Below are positions 6,337 through 17,768 of a stretch of DNA of 25,183 nucleotides, one piece after another. A program made the translations under genes and the position numbers. Every line of letters starts with the position of its first letter. Position 1 is the first letter of the stretch. The stretch covers positions 1 through 25,183 of IMG/VR virus record IMGVR_UViG_3300034061_002597; one strand, given 5' to 3'. Below the pieces are notes generated by a model, which was not told the origin of the DNA, searched no databases, and worked only from the letters and a program-made list of their open reading frames with translations. This DNA comes from a virus.

Positions 6337-6346
6337 GGCAAGCCAG

Positions 6347-6363
6347 AGGGGTCTATTGCCCCT
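6347..6363. terminator. Short hairpin after the lysis genes
   Basis: AGGGG at 6347-6351 pairs with CCCCT at 6359-6363 around a 7-base loop, 10 bases after the last lysis-region stop. There is no T-run, so it is at best a weak or Rho-assisted terminator. Confidence 0.3.
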
Positions 6364-6461
6364 TGACGGAGGCGACCCTAATGGCAAACTGAACTCAGTC
6401 GGGTAGGGGTACGCTCGTTCATGGCGGGCCTCGATGACCTGAGGGCGTATCATATGTAGCG

Positions 6462-6489
6462 CCCTGACCCCTTGAGTGGGGTCACAGGG
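6462..6489. terminator. Stem-loop, probable terminator or processing site
   Basis: TGACCCC at 6465-6471 pairs perfectly with GGGGTCA at 6478-6484 around a 6-base loop. The stem is extended by CCC/GGG across a 2-base bulge. No clean T-tract follows. It could end the upstream operon or protect the start of the downstream transcript. Confidence 0.45.
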
Positions 6490-6556
6490 TATTTGCGGAA
6501 AGGTGCTTGACGAATGTGGAACAGTCCGCCAAGGTCATTGACGCACCACCAAACAC

Positions 6557-6694
6557 ATGAAAGCCCTCGCTACCCTGTTCGCCATCGCCGCCATCGGCTG
6601 GCTCGCCATCGTGACCTTCTGCGGTCCCGAACTCTACCGCGTCATCAACGGCCCGGAGCCGGTGAAGTCCAAGGCCGTCCGCAGCCACCGCTAA
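6557..6694 (+). CDS. Tiny single-TM protein
   Basis: A 45-residue frame starts at ATG 6557 and stops at 6692-6694. The first 22 residues are hydrophobic (MKALATLFAIAAIGWLAIVT), with one Lys at position 2, so it is either a signal peptide or a single-pass anchor. The rest is short and basic at the end (KSKAVRSHR). Codon bias matches neighbouring genes. It is the first gene after the non-coding gap and has an A/C-rich leader without Shine-Dalgarno. Function unknown. Confidence 0.6.
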   Translation: MKALATLFAIAAIGWLAIVTFCGPELYRVINGPEPVKSKAVRSHR

Positions 6695-6713
6695 TTTCCC
6701 ACCCACACAACAC

Positions 6714-7052
6714 ATGAGCAATACCACCAAACCCAAGGCCGAACTCGTCTCCGACAAGGCTATGACCGAACTCCTCAAGCGCAAGGCCATCGACTTCCGC
6801 AAGGCCGCTAGCCTCAAGGACCGGGACGGCTGCGTCAAGGGCCTCGGCGCCTACGCCCTCTACGGCATCGACCATGTCCGCGGTCAGCTCGTCGTCCTCG
6901 CCAGCGAACCGACCGCCGGCGACTTCAACAAGTACGTCACCGCCAAGGCCAAGGCCGACGTCTGCTCCCGCTACGATCAGGTTGTCGAGTACCGGGACGC
7001 TGGTTCCCACTCCAACCCCAAGGTCACCATCCTCTGCTGGCACCTCGCCTAA
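6714..7052 (+). CDS. Hypothetical accessory protein
   Basis: This 112-residue protein has a Lys-rich N-terminal half predicted to be helical (ELLKRKAIDFRKAASLKDRD). Its second half is mixed alpha/beta with a Cys-Trp-His end (ILCWHLA). No membrane segment or catalytic motif is seen. The gene follows a TAATTTCC-type junction and an A/C-rich leader. It belongs to a run of small accessory genes; no family is recognised. Confidence 0.7.
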   Translation: MSNTTKPKAELVSDKAMTELLKRKAIDFRKAASLKDRDGCVKGLGAYALYGIDHVRGQLVVLASEPTAGDFNKYVTAKAKADVCSRYDQVVEYRDAGSHSNPKVTILCWHLA

Positions 7053-7062
7053 TCTTCCCACC

Positions 7063-7332
7063 ATGCCCAACGCACACCACCCCTACACCGAGACGCTGAC
7101 CTTCGCCGGTCGCGTCATCCCCCTCAAACGCCCGATGGCCGAGTTCGCCGCCCGACGATTGCAGGCCATCCTCCCGCAGATCGCCGCGCTCAACGCCGCC
7201 GGCAAGACGCAGGCCGATGCCGCCGCCGCCCTGGACACGACTGTCTGCACCCTGCGGACCTGGCTCGACCTGACCGGCACGACTTGGGTCAACCTCAACC
7301 GCCGCGGCCCGTACGCCAAGCGCAACAAGTAA
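7063..7332 (+). CDS. Small HTH-like protein, first of a tandem paralogous pair
   Basis: The start is placed at ATG 7063, 10 bases after the previous stop and behind TAATCTTCCCACC. An upstream in-frame start would lie inside the previous gene. The 89-residue product has TFAGRVIPL near the N-terminus, the block ILPQIAALNAA in the middle and a helix-turn-helix-like segment (KTQADAAAALDTTVCTLRTW, about residues 48-67), then a basic end. It is about half identical by eye to the next gene. A 32-nt identical tract is shared (7169-7200 and 7443-7474). A DNA-binding role is inferred from the HTH-like pattern only. Confidence 0.72.
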   Translation: MPNAHHPYTETLTFAGRVIPLKRPMAEFAARRLQAILPQIAALNAAGKTQADAAAALDTTVCTLRTWLDLTGTTWVNLNRRGPYAKRNK

Positions 7333-7336
7333 GACC

Positions 7337-7723
7337 ATGCCTGACGCCAAGTTTCAGTTCGTCTCTTCGGTGACCTTCCTCGGTCGCGTCATCCCGCTGC
7401 TAAAGCCCATCGCCGTTTTTAACGCCCGCCGGCTTGAGGCTCTCCTCCCGCAGATCGCCGCGCTCAACGCCGCCCGAATGAGCAAAGAAGCAGCCGCCAA
7501 GGTCGTGGGCGTGACCGGGCAGACTCTGGCTACGTGGATTAAAATCACCCAGACTACTTGGCTCGGCAAGGTCAAGCAGCCGAAGGACAAGGGTCGTAAC
7601 CCGGTCAAACAGCGCGCTTACGTCAAGGCCTGGAAGCAGCGCAACCGCGAGAAGTGGAACGCCACCAAGCGAGCATACTATCAACGCCGCAAGGCCCGTC
7701 TCGCCGCCCTTTCCCATGCCTGA
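7337..7723 (+). CDS. HTH-like protein with basic C-terminal tail, second paralogue
   Basis: This 128-residue protein repeats the plan of its neighbour: TFLGRVIPL, LLPQIAALNAA, then an HTH-like segment (SKEAAAKVVGVTGQTLATWI, about 50-69). It adds a tail of about 45 residues very rich in Lys, Arg, Tyr and Trp (VKAWKQRNREKWNATKRAYY), which resembles the basic N-terminal region of the HNH endonuclease at 17765. The tail could bind nucleic acid. The gene begins 4 bases after the first copy. Function as a small regulator or DNA-associated protein is inference. Confidence 0.75.
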   Translation: MPDAKFQFVSSVTFLGRVIPLLKPIAVFNARRLEALLPQIAALNAARMSKEAAAKVVGVTGQTLATWIKITQTTWLGKVKQPKDKGRNPVKQRAYVKAWKQRNREKWNATKRAYYQRRKARLAALSHA

Positions 7724-7748
7724 CCCATCCCACCGCCCATACAATCCC

Positions 7749-7985
7749 ATGACCATCATCAAACCCGACTCCCTCCCCAGCCTCTGGTGGCTCTTCCCCT
7801 GGAGCATGGCCCGTCAGCTGCACAAGAACGCCGTGGCCCTCAAGGCCCTGACCGACAAGCTCGACGCCGAGGTCAAGGCCCTCAGGTCTTCCCGTGAGCA
7901 TTGGGTCAGGAAGCACGACCGGGCCTACGAGGTCGCCATGCACAATGAGCGCGTCATCCGCGAGATGGAGGAACGCAGCCGATGA
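7749..7985 (+). CDS. Small helical protein with short hydrophobic N-terminal patch
   Basis: The 78-residue product has a Trp-rich hydrophobic patch (SLWWLFPWSM, about 11-20) followed by a long charged helix with coiled-coil character. An alternative ATG at 7716 overlaps the previous stop and would add 11 residues. I prefer 7749 because it gives the C-rich CCCATG context seen at many starts here, but this is not decisive. The patch is too short for a normal membrane span but could be a peripheral anchor. The stop overlaps the next start as ATGA. Confidence 0.65.
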   Translation: MTIIKPDSLPSLWWLFPWSMARQLHKNAVALKALTDKLDAEVKALRSSREHWVRKHDRAYEVAMHNERVIREMEERSR

Positions 7986-8266
7986 GCACCTTCAAGCACC
8001 TCGACGGCATGGTCGCCCTGCTCTCCGAAGTCTACGAAATCAATGAGCGCATCATGACCGGGGACATCTGCTCCAGCAAGACCGCCATCGCTTCGACCCG
8101 CATGAAGAAACTCCTGCACCACTACCACGAAGCCCTGCACGAAGACGGCGCCGTCAAGGTATCGCTTCAGGCTTACGCCGCCGCCGGTGGCTGGGTCGGT
8201 ATAACCTACTCCTACGAGGTCGACGGTTTCGAGGTCGCCGGATCACAAGTCCCGAGACGCGTATGA
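7982..8266 (+). CDS. Hypothetical accessory protein
   Basis: This 94-residue protein begins at ATGA overlapping the previous stop. The N-terminal two thirds look helical, with a His-rich stretch (KKLLHHYHEALHE, about 42-54). The C-terminal third looks like beta strands (GWVGITYSYEVDGFEV). No known motif is visible. It is coupled on both sides to coiled-coil genes, so co-expression is likely. The family is not recognised. Confidence 0.68.
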   Translation: MSTFKHLDGMVALLSEVYEINERIMTGDICSSKTAIASTRMKKLLHHYHEALHEDGAVKVSLQAYAAAGGWVGITYSYEVDGFEVAGSQVPRRV

Positions 8267-8535
8267 GCGACCTTGAACTGACGATGATGCGCCGCGTGGG
8301 CGAGCTGAACAAGGAGGTCGCCGCCCTCAAGGCCGAGAACGTCCGCCTCAAGACTGAGGTTGAGCATCTGATGGTCTTCTGTAATTGCACCCTTATCCCT
8401 AACAAAGAATTACAGGCACAGGTCGAACGGCTGACCAAGGCTGGGGATAACCTTGTCTATGTGGTCACCGAACACCCAGTTGCTGAACCATTCGTAAAGG
8501 CTTGGTTCGCCGCCAAGGAGGGCAAGCAGTCGTGA
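8263..8535 (+). CDS. Coiled-coil protein, first of a tandem pair
   Basis: This 90-residue protein starts at an ATGA overlap. It has a heptad-like leucine/valine pattern at about 9-35 (ELNKEVAALKAENVRLKTEV), then a short Cys-containing turn, a second helix with LTKAGDNL, and a C-terminal AWFAAKEGK. The same order of blocks occurs in the next gene, so the two are paralogues. It has no enzymatic motif. The coiled coil suggests homo- or hetero-oligomers, perhaps between the two paralogues. Function is unknown. Confidence 0.7.
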   Translation: MSDLELTMMRRVGELNKEVAALKAENVRLKTEVEHLMVFCNCTLIPNKELQAQVERLTKAGDNLVYVVTEHPVAEPFVKAWFAAKEGKQS

Positions 8536-8816
8536 GTATCTACGGAAACCACGAACATAGGGGCGAGGATGCCTTCATCAAGGCACAGTTTGAAGTCGCC
8601 CGCCTCAAGGCCGAGGTGGAGCGGCTGGACACCCTCTGCAAGCAACTGATGGCCCAGCACTCTGACATCTCCTGCGAGAACATCATGCTCCGCAAGGCCG
8701 GGGATTTGTTGGCCTTTCATTACATCTCTCTTGGCCGTAAGTTCTTCCCCAATGACCCGCTTCCGTCCAGCATCTCGGACTGGAACTCCGCCAAGGAGGG
8801 CAAGGGCCAGCCATGA
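8532..8816 (+). CDS. Coiled-coil protein, second of a tandem pair
   Basis: The start is placed at GTG 8532 in a GTGA overlap; a TTG further upstream in frame is less likely. The 94-residue product has a coiled-coil segment (FEVARLKAEVERLDTLCKQL, about 20-39), then LRKAGDLL and a C-terminal DWNSAKEGK, matching the block order of the preceding gene. Low-GC codons appear more often in its middle. The stop overlaps the endolysin start as ATGA, so it may be co-translated with the lysis enzyme. Confidence 0.7.
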   Translation: MSIYGNHEHRGEDAFIKAQFEVARLKAEVERLDTLCKQLMAQHSDISCENIMLRKAGDLLAFHYISLGRKFFPNDPLPSSISDWNSAKEGKGQP

Positions 8817-12873: not shown

Positions 12874-13470
12874 GTGACTGACGAAGCACCCACGCCGATG
12901 GCCGCCCCGACCCTCGTGCTGATTTCGGGGTTCGCCAGGGCCGGGAAGGACACTCTCGCCTCCGGGCTTCTTGAGTGGTCCACCCGCCCCGCCGAGCACA
13001 TCAATCTGGCAGACTCGCTCAAAGAAGCGTCCAATCATTTTCTCGATTATCTCGGCTTAGACGGTTCGTTTTTTAACGAGCAGTTTAAATGCGATAATCG
13101 GGACGCCTTGGTAAACTTCGGCAAGTTCGCACGGCGCCTAGATCGGGACGTCTTCGCCCGCCACTTCGCCAACTGGTGCCCGGTCATGAAGCACCACGAC
13201 CAACCCTCCCCCGAGACGGTGGTCTGCTCCGACTGGCGCTACATCAACGAGCTGCGGGTCTGTCAGGACATCCTCTGGGAAAGGGGCTGGAAGGTCCGCA
13301 CCGTCTATGTCGCCACCGCCGGCATCGGCCCCGCCAACGATGAGGAACTGGACAGCATCGCCGAGATACGGGCCGCCCATTCCTTCGACCAGGAATACAT
13401 CTTCAAGCCGAACGCCCGTCAGCAGATCATGTCCGAAGGACGCATCCTCGCCAAGTCATGGAGGCTCTGA
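12874..13470 (+). CDS. P-loop kinase, dNMP-kinase-like
   Basis: The 198-residue protein starts at GTG 12874; an ATG at 12898 just before the first strand is an alternative. Walker A is GFARAGKDT at residues 19-27, with the Lys-Asp-Thr ending found in phage deoxynucleoside monophosphate kinases and adenylate-kinase relatives. LADSLKEASNHFL at about 51-63 resembles the substrate-binding helix, and VVCSDWRYINEL at about 116-127 carries the usual D-x-R region. It probably phosphorylates dNMPs to raise the nucleotide supply for phage replication; specificity cannot be read. Its end overlaps the next gene by 13 bases. Confidence 0.72.
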   Translation: MTDEAPTPMAAPTLVLISGFARAGKDTLASGLLEWSTRPAEHINLADSLKEASNHFLDYLGLDGSFFNEQFKCDNRDALVNFGKFARRLDRDVFARHFANWCPVMKHHDQPSPETVVCSDWRYINELRVCQDILWERGWKVRTVYVATAGIGPANDEELDSIAEIRAAHSFDQEYIFKPNARQQIMSEGRILAKSWRL

Positions 13471-13772
13471 CCCCCGAGACGCTGGCGTGGGCCCGCAAGG
13501 TCGGCCTGTCCCCTGAGCGCGTGGCCTTCCTGCTCGCCTGCCCCAAGTACACCATCTGCCACGGCCAGCGTAAGTCCGAACGCAACGTGAAGGACAACCC
13601 GAACCATCACCTGCAGCGCCTCGGTGACTGCTACTGGTTCCGGCTACGTCGTCGCGGCACGGACATCGTCGAGAACATCGGCGGTGACCTGACCACGGCC
13701 CGCAAGCGCCGTGACGAGATGCTGGCGGCCTTCGACGCCGGCAAGCCCATCCCTTACCTCAACGCCCGATGA
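13458..13772 (+). CDS. Small putative DNA-binding protein, paralogue of next gene
   Basis: This 104-residue protein has an N-terminal helical part (TPETLAWARKVGLSPERVAF) that could be an HTH. A C-terminal domain follows with LGDCYWFRLRRRG at about 54-66 and ARKRRDEML at about 80-88. The order (strand with Y-x-F-R, then strands, then a helix with A-x(3)-RDE) resembles AP2-like or integrase arm DNA-binding domains. The neighbour at 13769 shows the same C-terminal plan. The stop overlaps it as ATGA. The role is unknown; a DNA-binding accessory is plausible. Confidence 0.68.
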   Translation: MEALTPETLAWARKVGLSPERVAFLLACPKYTICHGQRKSERNVKDNPNHHLQRLGDCYWFRLRRRGTDIVENIGGDLTTARKRRDEMLAAFDAGKPIPYLNAR

Positions 13773-14077
13773 GCACCCGAGCGCCAAAAGGCAAAGCCAT
13801 AGACGCGGCCCTGTATCAGTTAAGGCATGGCTCTAGCACAAGAATGGCCGCAATCATGTTCGGGGTTCGTATTTCAAGCGTGGCACCAGCCGCAAGAAGG
13901 CTAGGAGGAAGCATCATGTCTGTCAGGCAGAACAGGCGCATCTTCAAGAACAAGGGCTGTTACTGCTTTCGTTACAGGACGGCGACTTTGAACGTTTACC
14001 GCAGGCTCTCCCCGGACATCCACAAAGCCCGCATCATGCGTGACAAAATCGAGCAAGAGCTCGGCCTTTCCAAATGA
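13769..14077 (+). CDS. Small putative DNA-binding protein with HTH
   Basis: This 102-residue protein has an HTH-like segment (SSTRMAAIMFGVRISSVAPA, about 22-41) and a C-terminal domain (NKGCYCFRYRTATLN at about 60-74, then KARIMRDKIEQEL) that parallels the previous gene. Codon use is less GC-biased than in its neighbour. It overlaps both neighbours as ATGA. It may act as a regulator or DNA-binding partner; no family is confidently recognised. Confidence 0.68.
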   Translation: MSTRAPKGKAIDAALYQLRHGSSTRMAAIMFGVRISSVAPAARRLGGSIMSVRQNRRIFKNKGCYCFRYRTATLNVYRRLSPDIHKARIMRDKIEQELGLSK

Positions 14078-16756: not shown

Positions 16757-16787
16757 CAGTAGGGAATATACATTCCCTACATGATAC
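16753..16787. promoter_or_regulatory. 35-bp near-perfect palindrome, candidate operator or origin element
   Basis: The arms are GTATCA (16753-16758) and TAGGGAAT (16760-16767), mirrored by ATTCCCTA (16772-16779) and TGATAC (16782-16787), with a 4-bp ATAC centre and 1- or 2-bp interruptions. All 14 paired positions match. Its size and symmetry fit a dimer- or tetramer-binding operator in front of the packaging/late gene run, or part of an origin. As RNA it would also form a strong hairpin, but no T-tract follows closely. Confidence 0.6.
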
Positions 16788-17264: not shown

Positions 17265-17768
17265 GTGACCAAGGCAAGCATCAATGACCTCAGCGCTCCC
17301 GGCAAGGAGGCTAAGTCGTTTGACGCGTGGTTCTTCTCACAGCCTAAGAAACTCCAGGAGAAGATGAGGGAGAACGGCGTGCTGCCCTACCGCGAGATGT
17401 CGCAGTCTCGGCACGTCTTCCAAGTGGACGCCAATCATCCGGCATGGTCGACGCGTGACGGGGACAACCTGCGTAAGGAGAGAGAGGCGTTCATCAGTAG
17501 AGACCATGTCGGCGTCATGCTCAAAGGGTTCATCGATGCGCTGGCCGCGACCGACAGCTTCCCCTTCCGTCGTCACGTCGAGACGGTACGCTGGGCGTTG
17601 TCATTGCCCGGATGCCTGGACTCCCGCACGATCGGGAGGATGTACGGACGCTCCCACTTCTGGCTGCGTAGTCGGGCCAAGGAAATCCAACGCGCCGTGA
17701 ACTCTGACGCGTGCGGAATGTTTCCTCATGTGAATGCCAGACGCGACAAACATAAGCCTTTAAAATGA
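17265..17768 (+). CDS. Hypothetical protein upstream of HNH gene
   Basis: The 167-residue frame starts at GTG 17265, 45 bases after the previous stop. Features are a helical N-terminus (SFDAWFFSQPKKLQEKM), a central region with FPFRRHVETVRWALSLPG, and a C-terminal HTH-like segment (SRTIGRMYGRSHFWLRSRAK, about 120-139), which suggests nucleic acid binding. No enzymatic motif is seen. The stop overlaps the HNH start as ATGA, so the two are likely produced together, and a packaging or DNA-cleavage accessory role is possible. Confidence 0.68.
   Translation: MTKASINDLSAPGKEAKSFDAWFFSQPKKLQEKMRENGVLPYREMSQSRHVFQVDANHPAWSTRDGDNLRKEREAFISRDHVGVMLKGFIDALAATDSFPFRRHVETVRWALSLPGCLDSRTIGRMYGRSHFWLRSRAKEIQRAVNSDACGMFPHVNARRDKHKPLK

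Follow-up and report, generated by a model that had tools for sequence, protein, structure and literature searches.

We analysed a 25,183-nt stretch of viral DNA (IMG/VR record IMGVR_UViG_3300034061_002597; hereafter the window), in which the recognised genes lie on the plus strand throughout. Two small adjacent genes, here called P1 and P2, follow a 220-nt non-coding stretch and two further small genes, with a holin-like gene upstream. The position occupied by P2, bounded on the left by P1 and on the right by gene C, is referred to below as the slot. The features on which the analysis turns are as follows.

6337..6556, no strand assigned: upstream non-coding stretch of 220 nt in which the block GGAAAGGTGCTTGACGAATG is conserved; putative promoter region for the transcription unit that includes P1
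6714..7052, plus strand: gene of 112 aa upstream of P1; not constant, with 20 nucleotide matches among 85 relatives
7063..7332, plus strand: P1, an 89-aa HTH-like protein, the resident gene to the left of the slot
7169..7200, plus strand: 32-nt tract in P1, identical to the tract in P2 and encoding LPQIAALNAA
7243..7275, plus strand: P1 residues 61-71, predicted recognition helix
7337..7723, plus strand: P2, a 128-aa P1 paralogue with an HTH-like domain (1-76) and a basic helical tail (~82-128); the slot occupant
7443..7474, plus strand: 32-nt tract in P2, identical to the tract in P1
7568..7720, plus strand: P2 tail, residues 78-128, K/R-rich, homologous to stand-alone basic slot proteins
7716..7723, plus strand: junction ATGCCTGA, where the start of gene C overlaps the P2 stop; right-hand end of the slot
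7716..7985, plus strand: gene C (MPDPSHRPY..WWLFPW), which is conserved and bounds the slot on the right
7982..8266, plus strand: gene D, next to gene C

Downstream lie genes for a Holliday junction resolvase, an Erf-like annealing protein, an exonuclease VIII-like protein, a nucleotide kinase, a metallophosphoesterase and a helicase-like protein, together with the terminase small subunit, portal and capsid genes and a large terminase recognised by tblastn to phage records. The window also contains other repeated elements. Adjacent coiled-coil-like genes at 8263-8535 and 8502-8816 share repeated DNA (8314/8592 and 8503/8781), suggesting further duplicated small genes, and two adjacent small proteins at 13458-14077 share a CYxFRxR...ARxxRD motif (E 3e-4 for that pair) and may be another pair of paralogues. 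A perfect inverted repeat with 9-nt arms and a 4-nt spacer occupies non-coding DNA after the helicase gene (16759-16780); it was not found in 207 loci, many of which probably do not cover this region.

The large terminase gives an indication of the host. A second scan, with the terminase as query, yielded three contigs from metagenome-assembled genomes (MAGs): the window's gene matched genes on Opitutales and Opitutae contigs at 85% and 81% (best segments) and a gene of a Verrucomicrobiota MAG at 59%. On the Opitutae contig, a P1-like gene (E 5e-11) is followed directly by C-like and D-like genes, recognised by eye; these lie on the minus strand, outside the reach of our plus-strand-only profile scan. 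A convincing P1 match was absent from the other two MAGs, and the 41 stretches returned by a genome scan with the P1 profile included no relative. These matches point to Opitutales as the host, with the reservation that MAG contigs can be wrongly binned.

P1 and P2 belong to an abundant HTH family

A preliminary description of this locus, made from the sequence alone, proposed that the two genes are HTH-like paralogues of no recognised family. Both open reading frames were recovered, and their products are identical at 40 of 76 aligned residues (53%; E 8e-27), with a local alignment score of 199, where the highest among 1000 shuffles was 50. The blocks said to be common to the two proteins are present in each: TFAGRVIPL/TFLGRVIPL, LPQIAALNAA and TLRTW/TLATW.

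The AF2 model of P1 (mean pLDDT 77.8) consists of a hairpin (residues 8-26) and helices at 27-45, 50-56 and 61-71, that is, a three-helix core with a turn, with block pLDDT values of 84-87 over most of the helices. In the P2 model the same elements recur with low confidence (block pLDDT 36-71 in the HTH part), and the tail adds two helices, at 89-102 and 104-127, with block pLDDT 78-94. In P1, residues 39-69 align to the HTH core of Pfam profiles at E 0.003-0.09. Scores against HTH_23/HTH_28 remained under the family cut-offs, at 18.2 (cut-off 25) and 16.8 (24.6) for P1 and 13.1 (24.6) for P2, and P1 differs from those families in its added N-terminal predicted hairpin and a conserved RGPY motif. 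A third protein also links the pair to HTH_23. This double-HTH protein (~144 aa), itself one of the slot occupants described below, exceeds the HTH_23 cut-off and aligns by profile with both P1 and P2 (92% probability for P1). Its 29 loci (L101-L129) all carry genes C and D, and P1 lies nearby in 28, the remaining locus (L114) being cut at the contig end; in five (L125-L129) the double-HTH gene precedes P1 instead of following it. The sub-cut-off profile matches, the P1 model and this alignment together uphold the HTH assignment, and the model supports a predicted hairpin-plus-HTH fold for P1.

No closer named relative emerged. Neither protein matched Pfam or NCBIfam above cut-off; P1 had no tblastn match among 50,697 phage records; among isolated phages nothing matched the double-HTH protein, and P2 found matches at E about 1 and no better; and blastn of window positions 6600-8300 returned no isolated phage. 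Structural matches in the PDB were weak (best Foldseek E 1.4), and in the PDB and BFVD lists no named regulator family stood well above the others, an absence that carries no weight as proof. The best-ranked PDB fold was E. coli Fis (51 residues, 2.1 A, Z 5.7, 18% identity), for which there was no sequence match and which at so low a Z may reflect just a common arrangement. Among predicted structures in BFVD, the fold closest to P1 (TM 0.63, 27% identity, E 1.3e-3) came from uncharacterised Caudovirales proteins of uncultured phages (A0A6J5LYK6 and others), and the top hit has no assigned function. Other PDB, PHROG and NCBIfam hits to P1 and P2 were weak and were set aside. P1 and P2 thus represent a real and abundant HTH family that is unnamed in the libraries we searched, and a literature search limited to broad terms found no description of the locus.

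The slot between P1 and gene C is exchanged with precise boundaries

We assembled 93 loci from relatives, comprising 13 from a scan with P2 and the best 80 of 125 from a scan with P1, a choice that biases the sample towards close relatives. Removing 8 duplicates and adding the window left 86 contigs, in all of which P1 flanks the slot by construction. A separate profile survey confirmed 194 relatives, and the best 80 of these were mostly the same contigs. Six states of the slot were distinguished. P2 occupies it in 22 contigs, a stand-alone basic repeat protein resembling the P2 tail in 19, the double-HTH protein in 11, a C5 methyltransferase (DCM) in 6 and a methylase-like protein in one, and it is empty in 27. 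Types were set by text patterns, with four unclassified contigs placed by eye (L059 and L076 as basic, L065 and L066 as double-HTH); L021, which has a 138-aa ORF in addition to P2, was assigned to P2, and five contigs that stop short of gene C (two with P2, three with DCM) stayed in their respective groups. In two of the DCM contigs (L019, L093), 185 nt separate P1 from the methyltransferase gene. Since 64 of the 86 contigs lack P2, it is dispensable, and since the remaining 22, the window included, carry P1 and P2 together, the pair is unlikely to have arisen as an artefact of assembly.

The next junction, by contrast, is fixed: in each of the 74 contigs where the ORF after gene C could be read (72 recognised by pattern, 2 by eye), that ORF is gene D. 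The gene preceding C overlaps it by 8 nt in 64 of the 81 contigs with C seen and by 1 nt in 16, the usual junction being ATGCCTGA or GTGCCTGA, with a few TAA variants.

Within the slot, contents vary even where P1 is the same. One and the same P1 protein sequence was found with P2 (4 contigs), the basic protein (2) and the methyltransferase (1), and three further P1 sequences each occur with two kinds of occupant. At the DNA level, P1 is identical to codon 84 in L073, whose slot is empty, and L077, whose slot holds P2; likewise the P1 DNA of the window is 99% identical to that of L017, whose slot holds a basic protein. A P1 tree (85 DNA rows) requires 25 occupant changes, against a minimum of 5 and a shuffled mean of 46.6; it came from a short search and many of its branches are weakly supported. 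The evidence for exchange does not depend on this tree, because identical or near-identical P1s have different neighbours. The breakpoints are sharp, with alignments ending at the P1 stop and restarting at the gene C start: L077 and L087 agree at 99.3% through P1, fail to align across the slot, where P2 merely cross-matches P1, and agree at 94% from the start of C.

P2 is therefore a single-gene cassette, a mosaic module inserted between genes that are contiguous in close relatives. A classical moron brings its own promoter and terminator. P2 does not fit that description, as it begins 4 nt after the P1 stop and overlaps gene C by 8 nt, leaving no room for either; a simple scan found no promoter-like site near it. 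The arrangement resembles the mosaicism of mycobacteriophages, for which PMC3029335 describes single genes as modules exchanged at or near gene boundaries, possibly through short conserved boundary sequences. It differs from that mosaicism in being confined to one position with a small set of occupants, dominated by DNA-binding and DNA-modifying genes.

A conserved position with variable content also recalls the defence hotspots of P2-like phages and P4 satellites (PMC9122126). Might the slot serve anti-restriction or host takeover, its occupants protecting phage DNA or interfering with the host's DNA-binding machinery? The six C5 methyltransferases and the methylase-like protein among the 86 slots, the place of the slot, which follows the lysis genes and lies close to where a putative transcription unit begins, and the fast turnover expected of an arms race would all fit. 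Set against this, neither P1 nor P2 matched a PADLOC model at E 0.01, the scanned occupants matched methyltransferase models only, besides weak double-HTH matches, no known anti-restriction protein was recognised among the occupants, and 27 slots are empty. Methyltransferases are the sole overlap with those hotspots. We regard this as the main rival reading of the slot and as an unlikely one.

The tail of P2 ties two of the occupants together. As first described, P2 alone has gained a basic tail: residues 78-128 (51 aa) contain 18 K+R and 2 D+E. A profile of the stand-alone basic slot proteins gives this tail 32.2 bits, a score reached by none of 1000 shuffles (maximum 11.4). The tail also retains invariant residues. 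The tail had been likened to the HNH protein at 17765. That likeness exists in weak form (31% over 32 aa, E 0.001 as a single comparison), and the N-terminus of the HNH protein reaches 14.6 bits against the same profile (shuffle maximum 14.1); the closer kin of the tail is the stand-alone slot gene. On this sequence evidence, some phages carry one basic domain as a separate protein next to P1, and others carry it joined to a P1-like HTH. Because it is seen both as a neighbour of P1 and fused in P2, the arrangement hints that HTH and basic arm work jointly, and the two may cooperate on DNA.

The weak resemblance to an HNH protein also bears on where the basic domain came from. The tail and the basic slot proteins could be left over from, or related to, homing enzymes of the HNH/endonuclease VII kind, and the slot could be a former homing site, given that the basic slot proteins match the phage HNH/endonuclease VII families phrog_7091 and phrog_1035 over their basic repeats. 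Those repeats are where the similarity lies, and an HNH domain itself was detected by Pfam in none of the 8 slot ORFs scanned; P2 (searched to E 10) and three basic slot proteins (E 1) likewise lack any HNH match. The basic ORFs are moreover open and similar across 19 contigs, and invariant residues persist in the P2 tail, so that we consider a homing origin improbable.

The identical tract and the relation between the two genes

The preliminary description had also reported an identical DNA tract in the two genes and read it as a sign either of recent duplication or of gene conversion. The tract is real: 32 nt is the longest exact run between P1 and P2, and its 30-nt core, with 2 copies in the window, was reproduced in none of 100 dinucleotide shuffles, even allowing 3 mismatches. 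Neither explanation was supported by comparison with relatives. P1 and P2 are separate lines, each present in many contigs, and tracts from the same genome are no closer (mean 4.86 differences in 30 nt, n=21) than tracts from different genomes (4.12, n=1849). The window is alone among the 21 same-genome pairs in having identical tracts. Its P1 tract is shared by 40 of the 85 P1s that hold the tract whole, while P2 tracts mostly use other alanine codons than the P1 tract.

Adjacency, 53% protein identity and the tract itself could still be taken as signs of a recent tandem duplication, or of copies homogenised by gene conversion, serving as a regulator pair. Over codons 36-46 the P2 of the window does resemble P1 (97%) more than it resembles two related P2s (91% and 94%). 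Over the ten codons of the tract, two related P2 copies differ from it by 2 and 3 nt. Against this reading, the P2 of L003 differs within the tract from that of the window at two silent sites and nothing else, 20 of the 21 same-genome pairs are not identical, and the near-identical P1 of L017 stands beside a basic protein. We rejected gene conversion as unnecessary, with a private event possible for the window alone, and on these comparisons the tract is explained by a conserved peptide and common codons. Constraint on the tract at the DNA or RNA level was also discarded. Silent-site variation in P1 codons 36-46 was lower without reaching significance (P 0.05 with the tract specified, 0.29 with any segment allowed), the P2 tract gave P 0.47, and the RNA folded worse than shuffles (z 1.64).

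Nor do the two proteins appear to have evolved together. The 22 contigs supplied 17 distinct pairs (L003 was left out, its P1 being cut), across which P1 and P2 distances were uncorrelated (Mantel r 0.13, P 0.08), and remained so without three divergent P1s (r 0.12, P 0.20). Those three (L008, L011, L015) share 48-55% identity with the main type in the pairs compared, and the P2s beside them are up to 97% identical to P2s of main-type phages. Uncorrelated distances, and P2s so alike beside P1s so different, make a specific or obligate P1-P2 pair unlikely. The duplication reading is in our view most improbable and largely refuted, and cassette exchange takes its place.

Recognition helix, upstream region and proposed function

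Among 47 distinct P1 proteins compared over 84 positions (four contigs with cut or divergent P1s being left out), residue 66 was the most variable, followed by 5, near the N-terminus, then 58 and 62. Three of the four most variable residues (58, 62 and 66) therefore fall at the turn and the predicted recognition helix, where a few combinations are used: DCQ, ETH, DCT, GGS, ECM, GCK and ECQ. Such a pattern would be expected if DNA specificity were diversifying, though it falls short of proof.

The stretch at 6337-6556, the putative promoter region, keeps its ends in relatives, including the block GGAAAGGTGCTTGACGAATG, and has a highly variable, hairpin-rich middle. In the window this stretch has a better predicted fold than its shuffles (z -3.0), an alignment of relatives gave no common structure, and Rfam and tRNA searches returned nothing. 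In the ETH class the upstream block mostly reads AATTC or AAATC, and in the other classes GGAAC; none was found in 11 of the 86 contigs. We considered the block as a P1 operator and rejected it, as it differs mostly by clade and the GGAAC block also precedes the ETH-class P1 of one contig, taken to be L029 because that contig stands apart from the main ETH clade. No convincing P1 operator was found.

As an inference from sequence and model, P1 and P2 are likely to be DNA-binding regulators. A basic helical arm would suit RNA equally well, and the proteins might bind RNA or other proteins and not DNA at all; the HTH profile matches, the P1 model and the concentration of variability at the predicted recognition helix speak against this, and we judge it quite improbable. 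The explanation we favour, and hold to be probable with considerable room for doubt, is that P1 is an HTH regulator binding specific sites and P2 an exchangeable accessory cassette joining an HTH to a basic arm. P1, encoded early in a putative transcription unit directly after the lysis region, would bind specific DNA sites and regulate phage genes. P2, its diverged paralogue with a basic two-helix arm, is a one-gene cassette lodged between the P1 stop and the gene C start, which related phages exchange, probably through recombination within the genes on either side and possibly by the phage's own Erf and exonuclease, for which the window carries Erf-like and exonuclease VIII-like genes. Once present, P2 would provide accessory DNA binding, its HTH supplying site preference and its arm an extra, non-specific grip.

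A broader proposal, which we offer with low confidence, is that the locus is an exchangeable DNA-specificity module of abundant uncultured Opitutales phages, used in competition between phages or in evading host restriction. A resident HTH protein, its recognition helix diversifying by class, would have as its neighbour a slot whose DNA-targeting partners are exchanged, these being a fusion of HTH and basic arm, a basic arm on its own, a double HTH or a cytosine methyltransferase. What began as an odd pair of genes becomes a natural comparison set of phages with similar P1s and different genes at a single position. Should the occupants act on DNA, this set would show which small DNA-binding or DNA-modifying genes benefit uncultured phages, and the recognition-helix classes of P1 would constitute a testable specificity code.
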